From a virus: a stretch of 21,264 nucleotides of DNA. Below, in pieces: positions 2,154 to 14,032 of the stretch; within the stretch, counting starts at the first letter, position 1, and the number at the start of each line of letters is the position of its first letter. Both the position numbers and the translations under genes were made by a program. The stretch spans positions 1-21,264 of the IMG/VR virus record IMGVR_UViG_3300034104_001894; one strand, written 5' to 3'. The notes under the pieces were generated by a model, which searched no databases, was not told the DNA's origin, and saw nothing but the letters and a program-made list of their open reading frames with translations.

Positions 2154-2693
2154 ATGGCAAGAGTAGCAAAAACAATGAAAAAAGACCTACACAGAACAAA
2201 GCACAAATGTGTAGGTAAAAAGATGGAAGGATTTAAGTTTGCTGATACTAAAAATACTAGGTATGCTAGTTGTATGAATGAATACATTGGTAGACTGGGT
2301 AAAATTACAGAGTACAATGAGAAAACTGATGAGTTCAAAGTAGTGTTTAAAGATGACTACTGGTTTTATCCAGCTAAGTTAGGCTTGAAACATATTGTAG
2401 AAGAATCTGATGTGGTTATAGAAAATGTAACTGAAGAAGAAATTGATGATGCATATGTAAAAATGCTTAAGGAAGAGATAGCAGATTTATCAGCCAGATT
2501 AGATGCTGCTTTTAAAGAACAGGAAGAAATGCTTGAAGAGTTAAGCTCATGGTTAAAACCATTTCCTAGTGCTTTTACAAAGCTTCAGGAACATGCTGGT
2601 GTAATTACTCCGGAAGATGTTACTTATCACACAAATCTTATTCTTAAGATTATGGAGAATAAGTTTGGTTACAAACCTAAATCTTGGGAGTAA
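2154..2693 (+). CDS. Basic N-terminal domain plus coiled coil, paralogue of the 12455 gene, 179 aa
   Basis: The first 80 residues are basic and carry a small beta-rich segment (GRLGKITEYNEKTDEFKVVFKDDYWFYP) resembling an SH3-like or MIB-type binding fold. Residues about 95-130 form an acidic coiled coil. The C-terminal 65 residues match the protein at 12455-12976 in pattern: L..LD.A..EQE.M..EL..W, then ITP.DV.Y..(N/D)LI.(K/R)IM..KF. It overlaps the next gene by one base in a TAATG junction. The function of this phage family is unknown. Confidence 0.7.
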   Translation: MARVAKTMKKDLHRTKHKCVGKKMEGFKFADTKNTRYASCMNEYIGRLGKITEYNEKTDEFKVVFKDDYWFYPAKLGLKHIVEESDVVIENVTEEEIDDAYVKMLKEEIADLSARLDAAFKEQEEMLEELSSWLKPFPSAFTKLQEHAGVITPEDVTYHTNLILKIMENKFGYKPKSWE

Positions 2694-3007
2694 TGAAAAA
2701 GTCTGATGAACTAAAACAAGCTGCTGCTCAAGAAGAAAATGATCTTAAAGCTCTCGGTCTAATGACCGGGAGTTTGAGAGAAGGTAGACTAGAAAGGTTT
2801 ACTGAAACTTACTTGCCTCAATTACTGAAAATGGGATATGACATTGCTCAAGATGATGAGATGGTCAGATATACCATTGATACAGAAATGGGAGGAAAAA
2901 CATTTGGTATAGTAGATTACTATCCAAAGGCAAATAATCTATGCATTAGGAAGAGTAATAAATGGGTTAAGCCCGGTCTCAAATGGATAGTAAATAATTT
3001 GTTGTAA
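2693..3007 (+). CDS. Hypothetical protein, 104 aa
   Basis: The ATG at 2693 shares its A with the preceding TAA stop, a translational-coupling junction; an upstream start at 2684 is unlikely. The protein has an N-terminal helix (KKSDELKQAAAQEENDLKAL) and then a compact mixed domain (FGIVDYYPKANNLCIRKSNKWVKPGLKWIVNNL) that looks beta-rich. There is no signal peptide or membrane span. I do not recognise it. A structured RNA and a tRNA-like gene follow directly. Confidence 0.65.
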   Translation: MKKSDELKQAAAQEENDLKALGLMTGSLREGRLERFTETYLPQLLKMGYDIAQDDEMVRYTIDTEMGGKTFGIVDYYPKANNLCIRKSNKWVKPGLKWIVNNLL

Positions 3008-3022
3008 ATTCCTAAATGTATT

Positions 3023-3114
3023 GACACATAAACTTCAGTTCCCACACAGCAGTGAGATGGGCTAAGTTATATACAATTCCTCGGAGCTGGAAGTAGAAAG
3101 CTGAAGAGTGTGTC
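3023..3114 (+). ncRNA. Duplicated structured RNA motif, copy A
   Basis: This 92-nt element has an outer helix GACACA/TGTGTC (3023-3028 with 3109-3114), a conserved internal loop (TAAA on the 5' side, AG on the 3' side), an inner helix CTTCAG/CTGAAG (3033-3038 with 3101-3106) and two inner short stems: CCCA/TGGG at 3041-3044 with 3058-3061, and TTCC/GGAA at 3077-3080 with 3089-3092. Its 74-nt core matches copy B near 13950 except for two transitions. The outer helix has a different sequence there but stays paired, strong evidence for an RNA structure. It ends 6 nt before the tRNA-like gene. No riboswitch or ribozyme class was recognised. Confidence 0.8.
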
Positions 3115-3120
3115 TTTTAT

Positions 3121-3230
3121 GGTCCCATAGCTCAGTTGATAGAGCGGAACCTCTGAAAATGTAAAGGATAGCCTGTTAGGGCATGCAATACATCAGGTTC
3201 AGGTCACAGGTTTGAATCCTGTTGGGATTA
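3121..3230 (+). tRNA. tRNA-like gene with a 44-nt anticodon loop
   Basis: The cloverleaf is clear. The acceptor stem is 3121-3127 with 3223-3229, including two G-U pairs. The D arm is GCTC/GAGC at 3130-3145. The anticodon stem is GAACC/GGTTC at 3147-3151 with 3196-3200. A normal AGGTC variable loop follows, then the T arm ACAGG-TTTGAAT-CCTGT at 3206-3222 and discriminator A3230. No CCA is encoded. The anticodon loop is 44 nt instead of 7 and contains an extra hairpin, ATGTA/TACAT at 3159-3163 with 3189-3193. The base at position 33 is C, not U, so I assign no amino acid. It could hold a tiny intron, or be a tRNA mimic or decayed tRNA. Confidence 0.7.
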
Positions 3231-3274
3231 CTAAAAAATGCTATTGTGGGAGTGACTTACTTCAACCCTCTGAC

Positions 3275-3298
3275 AGCCGGGAAAGACTGGCTTTTTAT
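3275..3298 (+). terminator. Intrinsic terminator after the tRNA-like gene
   Basis: AGCCGG at 3275-3280 pairs with CTGGCT at 3287-3292 through a GAAAGA loop, with one G-U pair, followed by five T. It would end the transcript carrying the structured RNA and the tRNA-like gene. Confidence 0.75.
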
Positions 3299-3857: not shown

Positions 3858-4277
3858 ATGAGAATATCTGTAAACTATGATGATACTGATGTAGCAAAAG
3901 CACTCAGTAAGATCATCAAAGATTCTAATTCTGAGGAGTTTGTTAAATTACTTACTCCTATGTTATGTGGTACTAGTTATGGTACCGATCATTTCTTCAA
4001 GCTTATGATTGGTAATAAGTTGCCGGACATTATACCCATTGGTACACTATGCAGAATGGATGTACTTAATGTTGGATATGGTATAGATAAGGTACTTACT
4101 AAACAAAAGTTTGCAGATACAGATGATAAGATAGTGGTAACTGTAAAAGAGTTCAGAGGTTATCATGAATACAGCCCATATATTGTAGAATATACAGGAG
4201 TTGTAGGTACTGGAACCACTAAACTTGATACTGTTTATGTTAGAGAAGATCAACTAGAAGTTATTGAGGAATTTTAA
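3858..4277 (+). CDS. Hypothetical protein with C-terminal beta domain, 139 aa
   Basis: Residues 1-50 are helical (DDTDVAKALSKIIKDSNSEEFVKLL). Residues from about 55 look like an SH3-like small beta-barrel: IPIGTLCRMDVLNVGYGIDK, then DKIVVTVKEFRGYHEYSPYIVEYTGV and a closing strand LDTVYVREDQLEVIEEF. That pattern is common in phage regulatory and host-interaction proteins, but no family assignment is possible. It is the last gene before a hairpin at 4321, so it likely ends an operon. Confidence 0.65.
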   Translation: MRISVNYDDTDVAKALSKIIKDSNSEEFVKLLTPMLCGTSYGTDHFFKLMIGNKLPDIIPIGTLCRMDVLNVGYGIDKVLTKQKFADTDDKIVVTVKEFRGYHEYSPYIVEYTGVVGTGTTKLDTVYVREDQLEVIEEF

Positions 4278-7863: not shown

Positions 7864-8804
7864 ATGAACAGGCAAGAAGTCCAAGAAGAAGCAATCAAAG
7901 CTACAGAGGGTAAACAACGTGTTTCAGTGGTACTTGGCACAGGGGTCGGCAAGACCCTTGTTGGCCTAACTCATATAGAGCAAAACACTACAGAGTTGAT
8001 GCGGTGCCTTATTGTAGCACCAAAGAAAGCAATCTTCCAATCATGGAAAGATGATGCTGTGAAATTTGGTAAACAAAATTTATTAGGTAGAATGGTATTT
8101 ACTACTTATCTAAGTCTGAATAAACATAACCCTAATGATTATGATGCTGTCTATTTGGATGAGATGCATAGTTTATTAGATAGTCACCGGGGATTCTTGC
8201 AGTTATACAAAGGCAAGATCCTCGGTCTTACTGGTACTCCACCAAAGAGAGACTATTCAGAGAAAGGTAAGTTAGTAAATGAATTCTGTCCTGTGGTATT
8301 TACATTTAAGGCAGATGATGCTGTAGAGAGTGGAATACTAAATGATTATCAGATCATTGTGCACCAATTGAGATTAACTGATCAGAAAGTATATCCGGTC
8401 AAAATGGGTAACAGACAGTACATGGCATCTGAGATAGATAACTATACTTATTGGTCTAGAAGATTAGATGTAGGGTCAGGAAATGTTCATATGATTAGAG
8501 TAATGAGAATGAAAGCATTAATGGATTATCCTAGCAAAGAAAGATATACTAAAAAGCTAATGGAAAGCATTAGTACAAAGTGTATCATATTTGCTAATAC
8601 TCAAGCTCAAGCTGATAAGTTATGTAAATATAGCTACCACAGCAACAACAAAGAGTCTGAAGATAATCTTGAAATGTTTAAAGCAGGTAAGATTACTAAG
8701 TTATCTACTGTACTGCAGTTAAATGAGGGTGTGAACATCCCAAATCTTAAACAAGGTATCATTATGCATGCATATGGTAATGAGAGAAAAGCTGCACAGA
8801 GGAT
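7864..8804 (+). CDS. SF2 DNA helicase, exon 1 (residues 1-313 plus split codon 314)
   Basis: This is a DEAD/DEAH-like superfamily 2 helicase. Motif I is GTGVGKT (residues 25-31), Ia is VAPKKA (51-56), II is LDEMH (98-102), III is LTGTPP (122-127), and motif V is QLNEGVNIPNLKQGII near 284. The frame reaches the start of motif VI (AAQR) and then runs into nonsense. Joining base 8804 to 9901 restores the motif as QRIGRLLR and yields 364 residues, so the gene is split by a group I intron. The helicase probably unwinds DNA or remodels replication or recombination intermediates. Confidence 0.9.
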
Positions 8805-9900
8805 AAAAATACCTGTCCTCTTTAAATCCCTTTAATTGTCTGGAAAGCTAAGGAGAAATCTATGCCAATCAGCAGCCAAGCTTAAGCAGTCCGCTTATGA
8901 AGGTTCAGAGACTATCTAGAAATAGAGTACATGTAATTAGCTACTACATGGAAACGGGGGACATTTGCATAATTAAATATTTTTATCTACCTTTACTTTG
9001 CATATATACAAAGAAATGGGAGATATAAAATACAAACTTTATTCATTAAGTGATGAAACTGGTGTTAGATATATTGGGATAACAAAACAAAAGTTATCAT
9101 ATAGACTATCTGGACACTTAGCATCATGTAGACAAGCATTTAAAAATAAAAAGTCTAGACATTATAGACATTGTTGGATAAAATCTTTACTTGATAGAGG
9201 TATCAAACCTACAATGTCTTTAATAGCTGAATTTAATTCTTCTGAAGAGGTAAAACAAGCTGAAATTAATACTATTAAGTTATATAAAAACTTAGTAAAT
9301 GGAACAGCTGGTGGAGATGGAGTAAGAGATTATAAATTTAGTGAAGAATATCTAGAAACTAAAAGATTTAAAGTAGATCAATATGATTTGCAAGGAAATC
9401 TTTTAGCAACATTTAAAAGCTTGTCAGAAGCTTCATTAGTAGTAACAGGAACTGAAAAATATAATGGAAAAATTTCAGCTGTTACAAAAGGGAAACATGG
9501 AAGGAGAACAGCTTTTGGTTATGTATGGAGAATACATGGTGAACCATTTGACAAATATCCAGTTACTCCTCAAATAAATATTACTGAAGCACAAAGAAAA
9601 GCAATAAGTATGAGACAGTTGGAAAATAATGTAATGAAAGGCAAGTTAGGTTTACAAAATGTTACAAGTAAACCTGTATTAATACTAGATACTGAAAATG
9701 TAATATTAAATATTGCAGAATCTGTCAGAGAAGTATCAGAACTTACTACATTATCAAGAAGAACAGTTTCAAAATTGCTTAAAGGAAATAAAGATTTTGC
9801 TGGTTATAAACTAGCATATGCAAATGAAGATATAGTCCAATCCTTACAGAAATGTAAGAGTTCAACATTAAAAGCTTTTGTTGGACAAATTTATGCCTAG
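8805..9900 (+). mobile_element. Group I self-splicing intron in the helicase gene
   Basis: The 5' exon ends in T8804 and the intron ends in G9900, as the class requires. The internal guide GTCCTCT at 8815-8821 pairs with exon bases AGAGGAT at 8798-8804, with the usual U-G at the splice site. TACCT at 8810-8814 pairs with the first exon-2 bases AGGTA, forming P10. Core elements are P (AATTGTCTGGAAA, 8834-8846), Q (AATCAGCAGCC, 8867-8877), R (GTTCAGAGACTA, 8903-8914) and S (AAGATATAGTCC, 9827-9838). P7 is GACTAT at 8910-8915 with ATAGTC at 9832-9837. The endonuclease gene occupies the P8 region between R and S. Confidence 0.93.
9016..9900 (+). CDS. GIY-YIG homing endonuclease within the intron, 294 aa
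   Basis: The GIY-YIG fold spans about residues 5-100: YSL at 9-11, YIG at 19-21, R30 and H34, a catalytic Glu in QAEINTIK at 83, and N95 in LVNGTAGG. Repeated DNA-binding modules of NUMOD/IENR type follow: VDQYDLQGNLLATFKSLSEAS, GKISAVTKGKHGRRTAFGYVWR, and KPVLILDTENVILNIAESVREVSE. It should cut intronless helicase alleles to spread the intron. I start it at ATG 9016; an in-frame TTG at 8998 is weaker. Its stop codon TAG is the last three intron bases, and codons for NEDIV encode the ribozyme's S element. Confidence 0.9.
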   Translation: MGDIKYKLYSLSDETGVRYIGITKQKLSYRLSGHLASCRQAFKNKKSRHYRHCWIKSLLDRGIKPTMSLIAEFNSSEEVKQAEINTIKLYKNLVNGTAGGDGVRDYKFSEEYLETKRFKVDQYDLQGNLLATFKSLSEASLVVTGTEKYNGKISAVTKGKHGRRTAFGYVWRIHGEPFDKYPVTPQINITEAQRKAISMRQLENNVMKGKLGLQNVTSKPVLILDTENVILNIAESVREVSELTTLSRRTVSKLLKGNKDFAGYKLAYANEDIVQSLQKCKSSTLKAFVGQIYA

Positions 9901-10054
9901 AGGTAGGCTATTAAGACTAAATCCAGATGATAAAGCTATTGTCCACATACTATGTTACATGGATACTGTAGATGAGAAATGGGTAAAAGAGGCATTAGAA
10001 AACTTTGATCAGACCAAAATTATTTGGAAAGATTTTAATATTTCATTATATTAG
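9901..10054 (+). CDS. SF2 DNA helicase, exon 2 (C-terminal 51 residues)
   Basis: Exon 2 supplies the third base of the split Ile codon, then GRLLRLNPDDKAIVHILCYMDTVDEKWVKEALENF and a stop at 10052-10054. This completes motif VI, including the arginine finger region of SF2 enzymes. It has no start of its own and shares no frame with the intron gene that reads over the junction. The ClpS-like gene begins 4 nt after the stop. Confidence 0.9.
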
Positions 10055-10058
10055 TAGT

Positions 10059-10316
10059 ATGGAAGATTACAAAACACATAAACTAGTTATCTATAATGAT
10101 GATGTAAATTCTTATGACTACATTATGGCATGCTTGATTAGGTTTTGTAATCATGAAAGGTTACAAGCTGAACAGTGTGCCGTTATAGCTCATAATACTG
10201 GAAAATGTACTGTAAAATCTGGAGATTACATGGAAATGTTTGAGATAAAAGGTACATTTGATGATTTAGATATAAAATCAGAAATTAGAGAACATGCTCA
10301 GAGTGATATGTATTGA
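10059..10316 (+). CDS. clpS-like: ClpS-like N-degron adaptor, 85 aa
   Basis: The sequence follows the ClpS pattern: HKLVIYNDDVNSYDYIMACLIRF at residues 7-29 with the hallmark NDD (13-15), then AEQCAVIAHNTGKC with the conserved His 45 and Gly 48 that shape the N-degron pocket, and a Glu-containing strand. It is slightly shorter than bacterial ClpS and lacks a long N-terminal extension. Known ClpS proteins deliver substrates with destabilising N-termini to ClpAP or ClpCP. A phage copy could redirect host proteolysis or block the host adaptor. The start is ATG 10059; an earlier start at 10005 would overlap the helicase exon. Confidence 0.8.
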   Translation: MEDYKTHKLVIYNDDVNSYDYIMACLIRFCNHERLQAEQCAVIAHNTGKCTVKSGDYMEMFEIKGTFDDLDIKSEIREHAQSDMY

Positions 10317-13929: not shown

Positions 13930-13938
13930 ATGAAAAAG

Positions 13939-14032
13939 ACATTAGTAAACTTCAGTTCCCACACAGCGGTGAGATGGGCTAAGTTATATACAATTCCTCG
14001 GAGCTGGGAGTAGAAAGCTGAAGAGCTAATGT
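13939..14032 (+). ncRNA. Duplicated structured RNA motif, copy B
   Basis: The outer helix is ACATTAG/CTAATGT (13939-13945 with 14026-14032), different in sequence from copy A yet fully paired. The internal loop (TAAA / AG) and inner helix CTTCAG/CTGAAG (13950-13955 with 14018-14023) are unchanged. The core differs from copy A only by A to G at two sites; the second changes a U-A pair to U-G in the TTCC/GGRA stem, so pairing is kept. It lies between the 12988 gene and the small zinc-ribbon gene. Confidence 0.8.

Follow-up and report, generated by a model that had tools for sequence, protein, structure and literature searches.

What would a phage do with a gene that keeps the body of a tRNA and carries a loop of 44 nt in place of an anticodon loop? 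The gene lies at positions 3121-3230 of a 21,264-base virus record, the whole of which we call the window. Its structure is conserved, its anticodon is lost, and the slot in which it stands turns over among related phages. The window around it encodes phage replication genes, among them a ParB-like protein, helicases and a Sak4-like annealing protein. A helicase gene of the window holds a 1.1-kb insertion (8805-9901) that is absent from the contigs L015 and L011/L012; a GIY-YIG endonuclease ORF lies within it (8998-9900), and a group I intron match of 53.7 bits was found at 8736-9022 in the same helicase gene. A ClpS-like adaptor protein is also phage-encoded (10053-10313; Pfam PF02617, E 7.5e-14).

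Anatomy of the tRNA-like gene

An initial sequence-only reading had described intact cloverleaf stems and an intact T loop around an overlong anticodon loop without U33, and our analysis bears out each of these points. The gene gives a full-length tRNA match in Rfam (cmscan, RF00005, model positions 1-71, 47.7 bits, cut-off 29, E 1.5e-07), and its stems have the canonical lengths of 7, 4, 5 and 5 bp, with 98.4% of cells paired across six alleles. The 7-nt anticodon loop with U33 that a canonical tRNA has is missing, and all six alleles have 44 nt and C33 instead. CCA is not encoded after the discriminator; CTA stands there. A19 can in principle pair with U56, where normal relatives have G19-C56. 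ARAGORN reported no normal tRNA and no tmRNA in the window and passed over the copy at 3121-3230. A tmRNA identity for this gene was considered and ruled out, as ARAGORN finds none and the D and anticodon stems are normal.

The extra hairpin that had been described in the loop was also recovered: the 44 nt are predicted to fold into a hairpin with internal loops, yet with an energy only modestly better than that of dinucleotide shuffles (z about -1.3 to -2.0). The predicted folding energy is by itself weak evidence for the hairpin. We place the hairpin above chance because the 110-nt RNA is conserved in six alleles, whose acceptor stems differ by compensatory changes. The positions of these features, and of the RNA element discussed below, are collected in Table 1.

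Table 1. Coordinates in the window of the tRNA-like gene, its parts and the neighbouring RNA features
Feature	Position	Strand	Remarks
tRNA-like gene	3121..3230	+	110 nt to discriminator A73; Rfam RF00005, 47.7 bits; 6 alleles
Acceptor stem, 5' strand	3121..3127	+	Partner 3223-3229; 7 bp
D arm	3130..3145	+	4-bp stem; position 19 is A
Anticodon stem, 5' strand GAACC	3147..3151	+	Partner GGTTC 3196-3200; 5 bp
Anticodon loop, 44 nt	3152..3195	+	Between C31 and G39; position 33 is C
Inner hairpin of the 44-nt loop	3159-3163/3189-3193 and 3171-3173/3180-3182	+	Predicted fold
Apical hexaloop TGTTAG	3174..3179	+	Sole variable part of the insert
T arm ACAGG-TTTGAAT-CCTGT	3206..3222	+	5-bp stem; Rfam match and 6-allele alignment
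Terminator-like hairpin, then T run	3275..3292	+	3' flank common to L188, which has another tRNA-like
Conserved structured RNA element, copy 1	3023..3113	+	Just 5' of the tRNA-like; covarying pairs
Same RNA element, copy 2	13938-14032		Second window copy

Conservation of the fold and turnover of the slot

Pattern searches found the long-loop tRNA-like in at least seven phage contigs, where it occurs as six alleles (the window; L004/L013 with L005/L014; L015; L011/L012; L168; L195). Their length is constant, at 110 nt in six of six without gaps, and the 44-nt loop is invariant except at its apex, which reads TGTTAG in the window, TGTTAT in L168 and TACCAT in L195. In the acceptor stem every cell is paired across the six alleles, and three pairs are changed on both sides, the stem of L195 being AGTCATG/CATGACT as against AGTCCCA/TGGGACT. 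The covariation score of the six-allele alignment was reached by 2 of 500 shuffles, and controls in which the pairing partner was slid by 1 to 3 columns had only 19-44% of cells paired, compared with 98.4%. No covariation is seen within the insert, because the insert hardly varies. The elbow contact 18-55 is intact in all alleles; position 19/56, which is G-C in normal relatives, is G-U in L015 and A-U in the window, L004, L011 and L195, so that it is A-U or G-U in five of the six, and it is broken in L168. The loop-proximal pair of the anticodon stem, 31-39, is a C-A mismatch in two of the six alleles. Free decay of the arms, which the sequence-only reading had named as evidence against itself, is thus not what is seen: the stems keep pairing through compensatory changes.

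How far does this conservation reflect common transfer? The tRNA-like of the window is 98% identical to that of L012, while the downstream genes are mostly 58-80% identical. The opening bases of the next ORF show the same degree of conservation where relatives carry a normal tRNA, and the block is therefore not just one recent transfer. The phage of L195 is distant, with a replicative helicase only 37% identical, yet only the tip of its loop is different. The near-identity across distant phages may therefore owe something to horizontal transfer of the tRNA-like as well as to selection. Judged from the alignment, the fold mattered with or without such transfer, as the compensated acceptor stem shows. 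The long-loop gene is the only tRNA-like matched in its contigs of 111-123 kb. The locus had no similar DNA in the annotated phages or plasmids searched, and the 44-nt loop was not found in the bacterial and archaeal genome contigs searched.

Related phages were sought in two ways. A search with the upstream gene (2693-3004) gave nine related loci, of which five have a normal tRNA-Arg(UCU) in this position and two have the long loop. The second survey used the downstream gene (3858-4274) and gave 80 contigs, whose slot content was sorted by inspection: 31 of the 80 have a normal tRNA-Arg(UCU) and six, L168 included, have the long-loop form. Other contigs hold other tRNA-likes in the slot, of 159 nt in L188 (which shares its 3' flank with the window), 84 nt in L190 (= L030), 157 nt in L194 (= L079) and 116 nt in L141, where it stands beside a normal tRNA-Arg. 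The slot is empty in L115-L119, the closest relatives by the downstream gene, and there the neighbouring genes nearly abut. Between L030 and L079, 296 downstream bases are 98% identical and the tRNA-likes are unrelated. On these comparisons the locus is a variable slot with cassette exchange. Relatives with a normal 7-nt loop at this locus had likewise been named in advance as evidence against the unusual gene. Such relatives exist, but they show that the slot changes its content and do not make the long loop accidental.

Several smaller observations concern tRNA genes and their flanks. A hairpin, TGACAGC..GGAAAGAC..GC, followed by a T run, recurs after tRNA-likes in the window (3271-3292) and in L030, L033, L079 and L188. 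An RNA-like block, GTGTTGT...ACAACACAGAGG...CTCAAG, recurs directly 5' of the slot in L015 (6646-6724), L030, L033, L079, L168 and L195. In L024, ARAGORN called a suppressor tRNA at 8808-8882 ('Pyl cta'), which we rejected, since read directly it is a tRNA-Arg(UCU) with a slipped, imperfect stem; tRNA-Pyl (cta) is also called in L141 and L178, with the same loop, CCCTTCTAAGG, as in L024.

Just upstream of the gene in the window is a structured RNA element that is new. Its core is CCCAYACAGCGGTGAGATGGGCTAAGTTAKATACAATTYCTCGGAGCTGGRAGTAGAA, and 45 distinct sequences of constant length were found in the fetched phage contigs. Covarying pairs lie in its basal stem and in an inner hairpin; at columns 18-85, for instance, 27 sequences have C-G, 13 have A-T and 4 have T-A. 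No Rfam model matched it at E<=10, and it is absent from the genome, phage and plasmid collections searched. It often stands between tRNA genes or before ORFs, and because of its frequent place between tRNA genes it is a reasonable guess that it is a processing element or ribozyme, though still a putative one. Its position is like that of theta ribozymes, structured RNAs that lie beside tRNAs of Bacteroidota and Bacillota phages (Kienbeck et al. 2024, PMC10879173), but unlike these it matched no Rfam model. The idea that the element and the tRNA-like form an obligate unit was dropped, as no copy of the element adjoins the tRNA-like in L011/L012, L168 and L195.

Origin of the body and other abnormal tRNA-likes

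The body of the gene resembles two normal tRNAs. The slot tRNA-Arg(UCU), as in L003, has the same position and a nearly identical acceptor stem and T arm; it differs in its own 7-nt loop CTTCTAA, a 9-nt D loop and an anticodon that reads AGA. The stretch from D arm through anticodon stem to variable loop, TAGAGCGGAACC...GGTTCAGGTC, recurs in a canonical tRNA-Gly(GCC) of L210, in which the end of the D arm, the anticodon stem and the variable loop (GGAACC...GGTTCAGGTC) are identical to those of the long-loop gene. That tRNA-Gly(GCC) has the loop TTGCCAA where the long-loop gene has 44 nt, and the acceptor stem and T arm of the long-loop gene match the slot tRNA-Arg rather than it. With this one viral hit as the guide, the gene looks like a tRNA-Gly(GCC) that retains T32 and A38 but has 42 nt in the place of positions 33-37. 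The 37-nt insertion of the sequence-only reading holds relative to a 7-nt loop; relative to tRNA-Gly(GCC) the change looks like a replacement of 5 nt by 42.

The long-loop gene is not the only abnormal tRNA-like in these phages. The fetched loci were scanned mechanically, which gave about 40 distinct tRNA-likes without a recognisable anticodon arm of 5 bp and 7 nt; a few short sequences among them, of about 68-72 nt, are probably scanner misses. Most share the acceptor AGTCAGG and a Leu-type D arm, and their anticodon domains vary greatly in length. Anticodon domains of about 36-110 nt without a normal loop, in bodies with a normal T arm and mostly with an AGTCAGG or AGCAAGG acceptor and a Leu-type D arm, were observed in L017, L020, L021, L028, L033, L077, L079, L081, L083, L085, L086, L096, L105, L141 and L188. 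Identical variable domains occur across phages, as in a 116-nt tRNA-like found in both L085 and L141. An insert of about 100 nt is 95% identical between L085 (reverse, 1538) and L105 (reverse, 320), while the acceptor and T stems around it differ. Counted as sequences in the fetched loci and not as independent events, and by a scan that misses some tRNA types, abnormal tRNA-likes stand to normal tRNAs as 8 to 3 directly 3' of the upstream element and as 27 to 142 elsewhere.

Possible functions of the RNA

The simplest reading, that of a decoding tRNA that functions despite its 44-nt loop, is extremely improbable: the body is intact by its Rfam match, but U33 and a 7-nt loop are both absent, and we know of no tRNA that decodes with such a loop. 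A normal tRNA could still arise if the gene were an intron-bearing pre-tRNA whose insert of 35-42 nt is removed by an unknown small-intron mechanism or by a host or phage endonuclease and ligase. tRNA introns classically sit in the anticodon loop, a CTGAAAA motif directly follows the 5' strand of the anticodon stem, and the insert shared by L085 and L105 lies in tRNA bodies with different acceptor stems. One product would be the loop CTGAAAA (Phe GAA) on a 6-bp stem, but the 6-bp stem that it requires is broken in two alleles, and with the paired 5-bp stem, position 33 is C or A after any excision, never U. No intron family matched in Rfam at E<=10, even though the group I intron of the window helicase gene was detected; in particular, no group I catalytic core was found in or across the insert at that threshold, with the helicase intron at 8736-9022 as the positive control, in agreement with the doubt that had been expressed about a group I intron. 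By inspection, the predicted fold lacks the bulge-helix-bulge (3-nt bulge, 4-bp helix, 3-nt bulge) that marks the exon-intron junction of archaeal and eukaryal-type tRNA introns. A T4-type RNA ligase is encoded in 2 of 15 related records, neither of which carries the long-loop gene, and the contigs L012, L013 and L015 have neither RtcB nor a T4-type ligase. RtcB occurs in 0 of the 15 records, a count that covers phage records. With no intron-less allele of the long-loop tRNA found either, the intron reading is unlikely, and the mini-intron suggested from the sequence is disfavoured on the same points.

Decay was another of the early suggestions, and we considered it as a tRNA pseudogene spread through recombination. 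C56 is lost in six of six alleles, two carry the C-A mismatch, and the slot of relatives holds a working tRNA-Arg, all of which would suit decay. The compensatory acceptor changes, the constant length and an insert that is invariant except at its tip contradict it, and we consider it very unlikely. The tRNA-mimic option, in turn, is favoured by the conserved alleles and their compensatory changes. We conclude that the gene at 3121-3230 is probably a conserved, non-decoding tRNA mimic that presents a hairpin.

The gene could also encode a structural or regulatory small RNA for which the tRNA body is only a scaffold for processing and stability, and whose hairpin binds a protein or RNA of phage or host with no link to defence. 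The conserved internal loops and variable tip suit a regulatory RNA as well as they suit a decoy. The window, however, holds no complementary target beyond chance: only two 10-nt matches to the loop were found on the + strand, with duplex energies no better than those of shuffles. The slot is often empty or filled by a normal tRNA, a pattern that suits a conditional advantage more than it suits a core regulator. We regard a regulatory role as quite improbable.

For the tRNA mimic, we propose instead that the intact body (cloverleaf, elbow nucleotides and A73) would direct a 5' cut by RNase P, trimming and CCA addition by the host, giving a stable RNA. This RNA would display the conserved hairpin, with its variable 6-nt tip, where the anticodon (positions 33-37) would be. 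Its most likely role during infection would be to divert or compete for host proteins, as a decoy whose hairpin may be the exchangeable part that sets specificity. We infer this role because the anticodon is lost, the slot turns over, and published tRNA-cutting defences select phage anticodon loops. A decoy role against host proteins that bind or cut tRNAs is a tentative suggestion and, taken alone, on the unlikely side.

The published precedents share features with the gene but differ from it. Phage tRNA bodies altered in the anticodon loop, as here, were described by van den Berg et al. 2023 (PMC10264068), who found that anticodon-loop mutations let phage tRNAs escape host anticodon nucleases. 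Those tRNAs were treated as working and have point changes in the loop, whereas in the window a hairpin replaces the anticodon; the words 'insertion' and 'decoy' are absent from the main text of that paper. Selection of phage tRNA anticodon loops by tRNA-cutting defences is also described in PMC11555353. The cultured Tenacibaculum phage pT24 (LC168164) has two tRNA-Undet genes, bodies with abnormal anticodon arms, as here, but its arm is a stem lengthened by a few pairs and not a 44-nt loop, and its sequence is unrelated to that of the window. Judged from titles, abstracts and word counts, the literature holds no matching description of long-loop or decoy phage tRNAs.

The 44-nt-loop gene and the several dozen abnormal tRNA-likes, which reach about 160 nt, may together form an undescribed class, a possibility to which we give somewhat less than even confidence. 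Its members would be phage tRNA bodies with a swappable domain in place of the anticodon arm, and it is possible, with the same reserve, that they are exchanged as cassettes and act as mimics against tRNA-handling or tRNA-cutting host factors. Programs that find tRNAs miss such genes or give them a wrong label, as in the silence of ARAGORN on the window's copy. The usual explanations for phage tRNAs are codon supply and the replacement of tRNAs cut by defences. A conserved tRNA body without an anticodon can do neither directly, and the idea of a decoy or mimic thereby becomes testable on a single gene.
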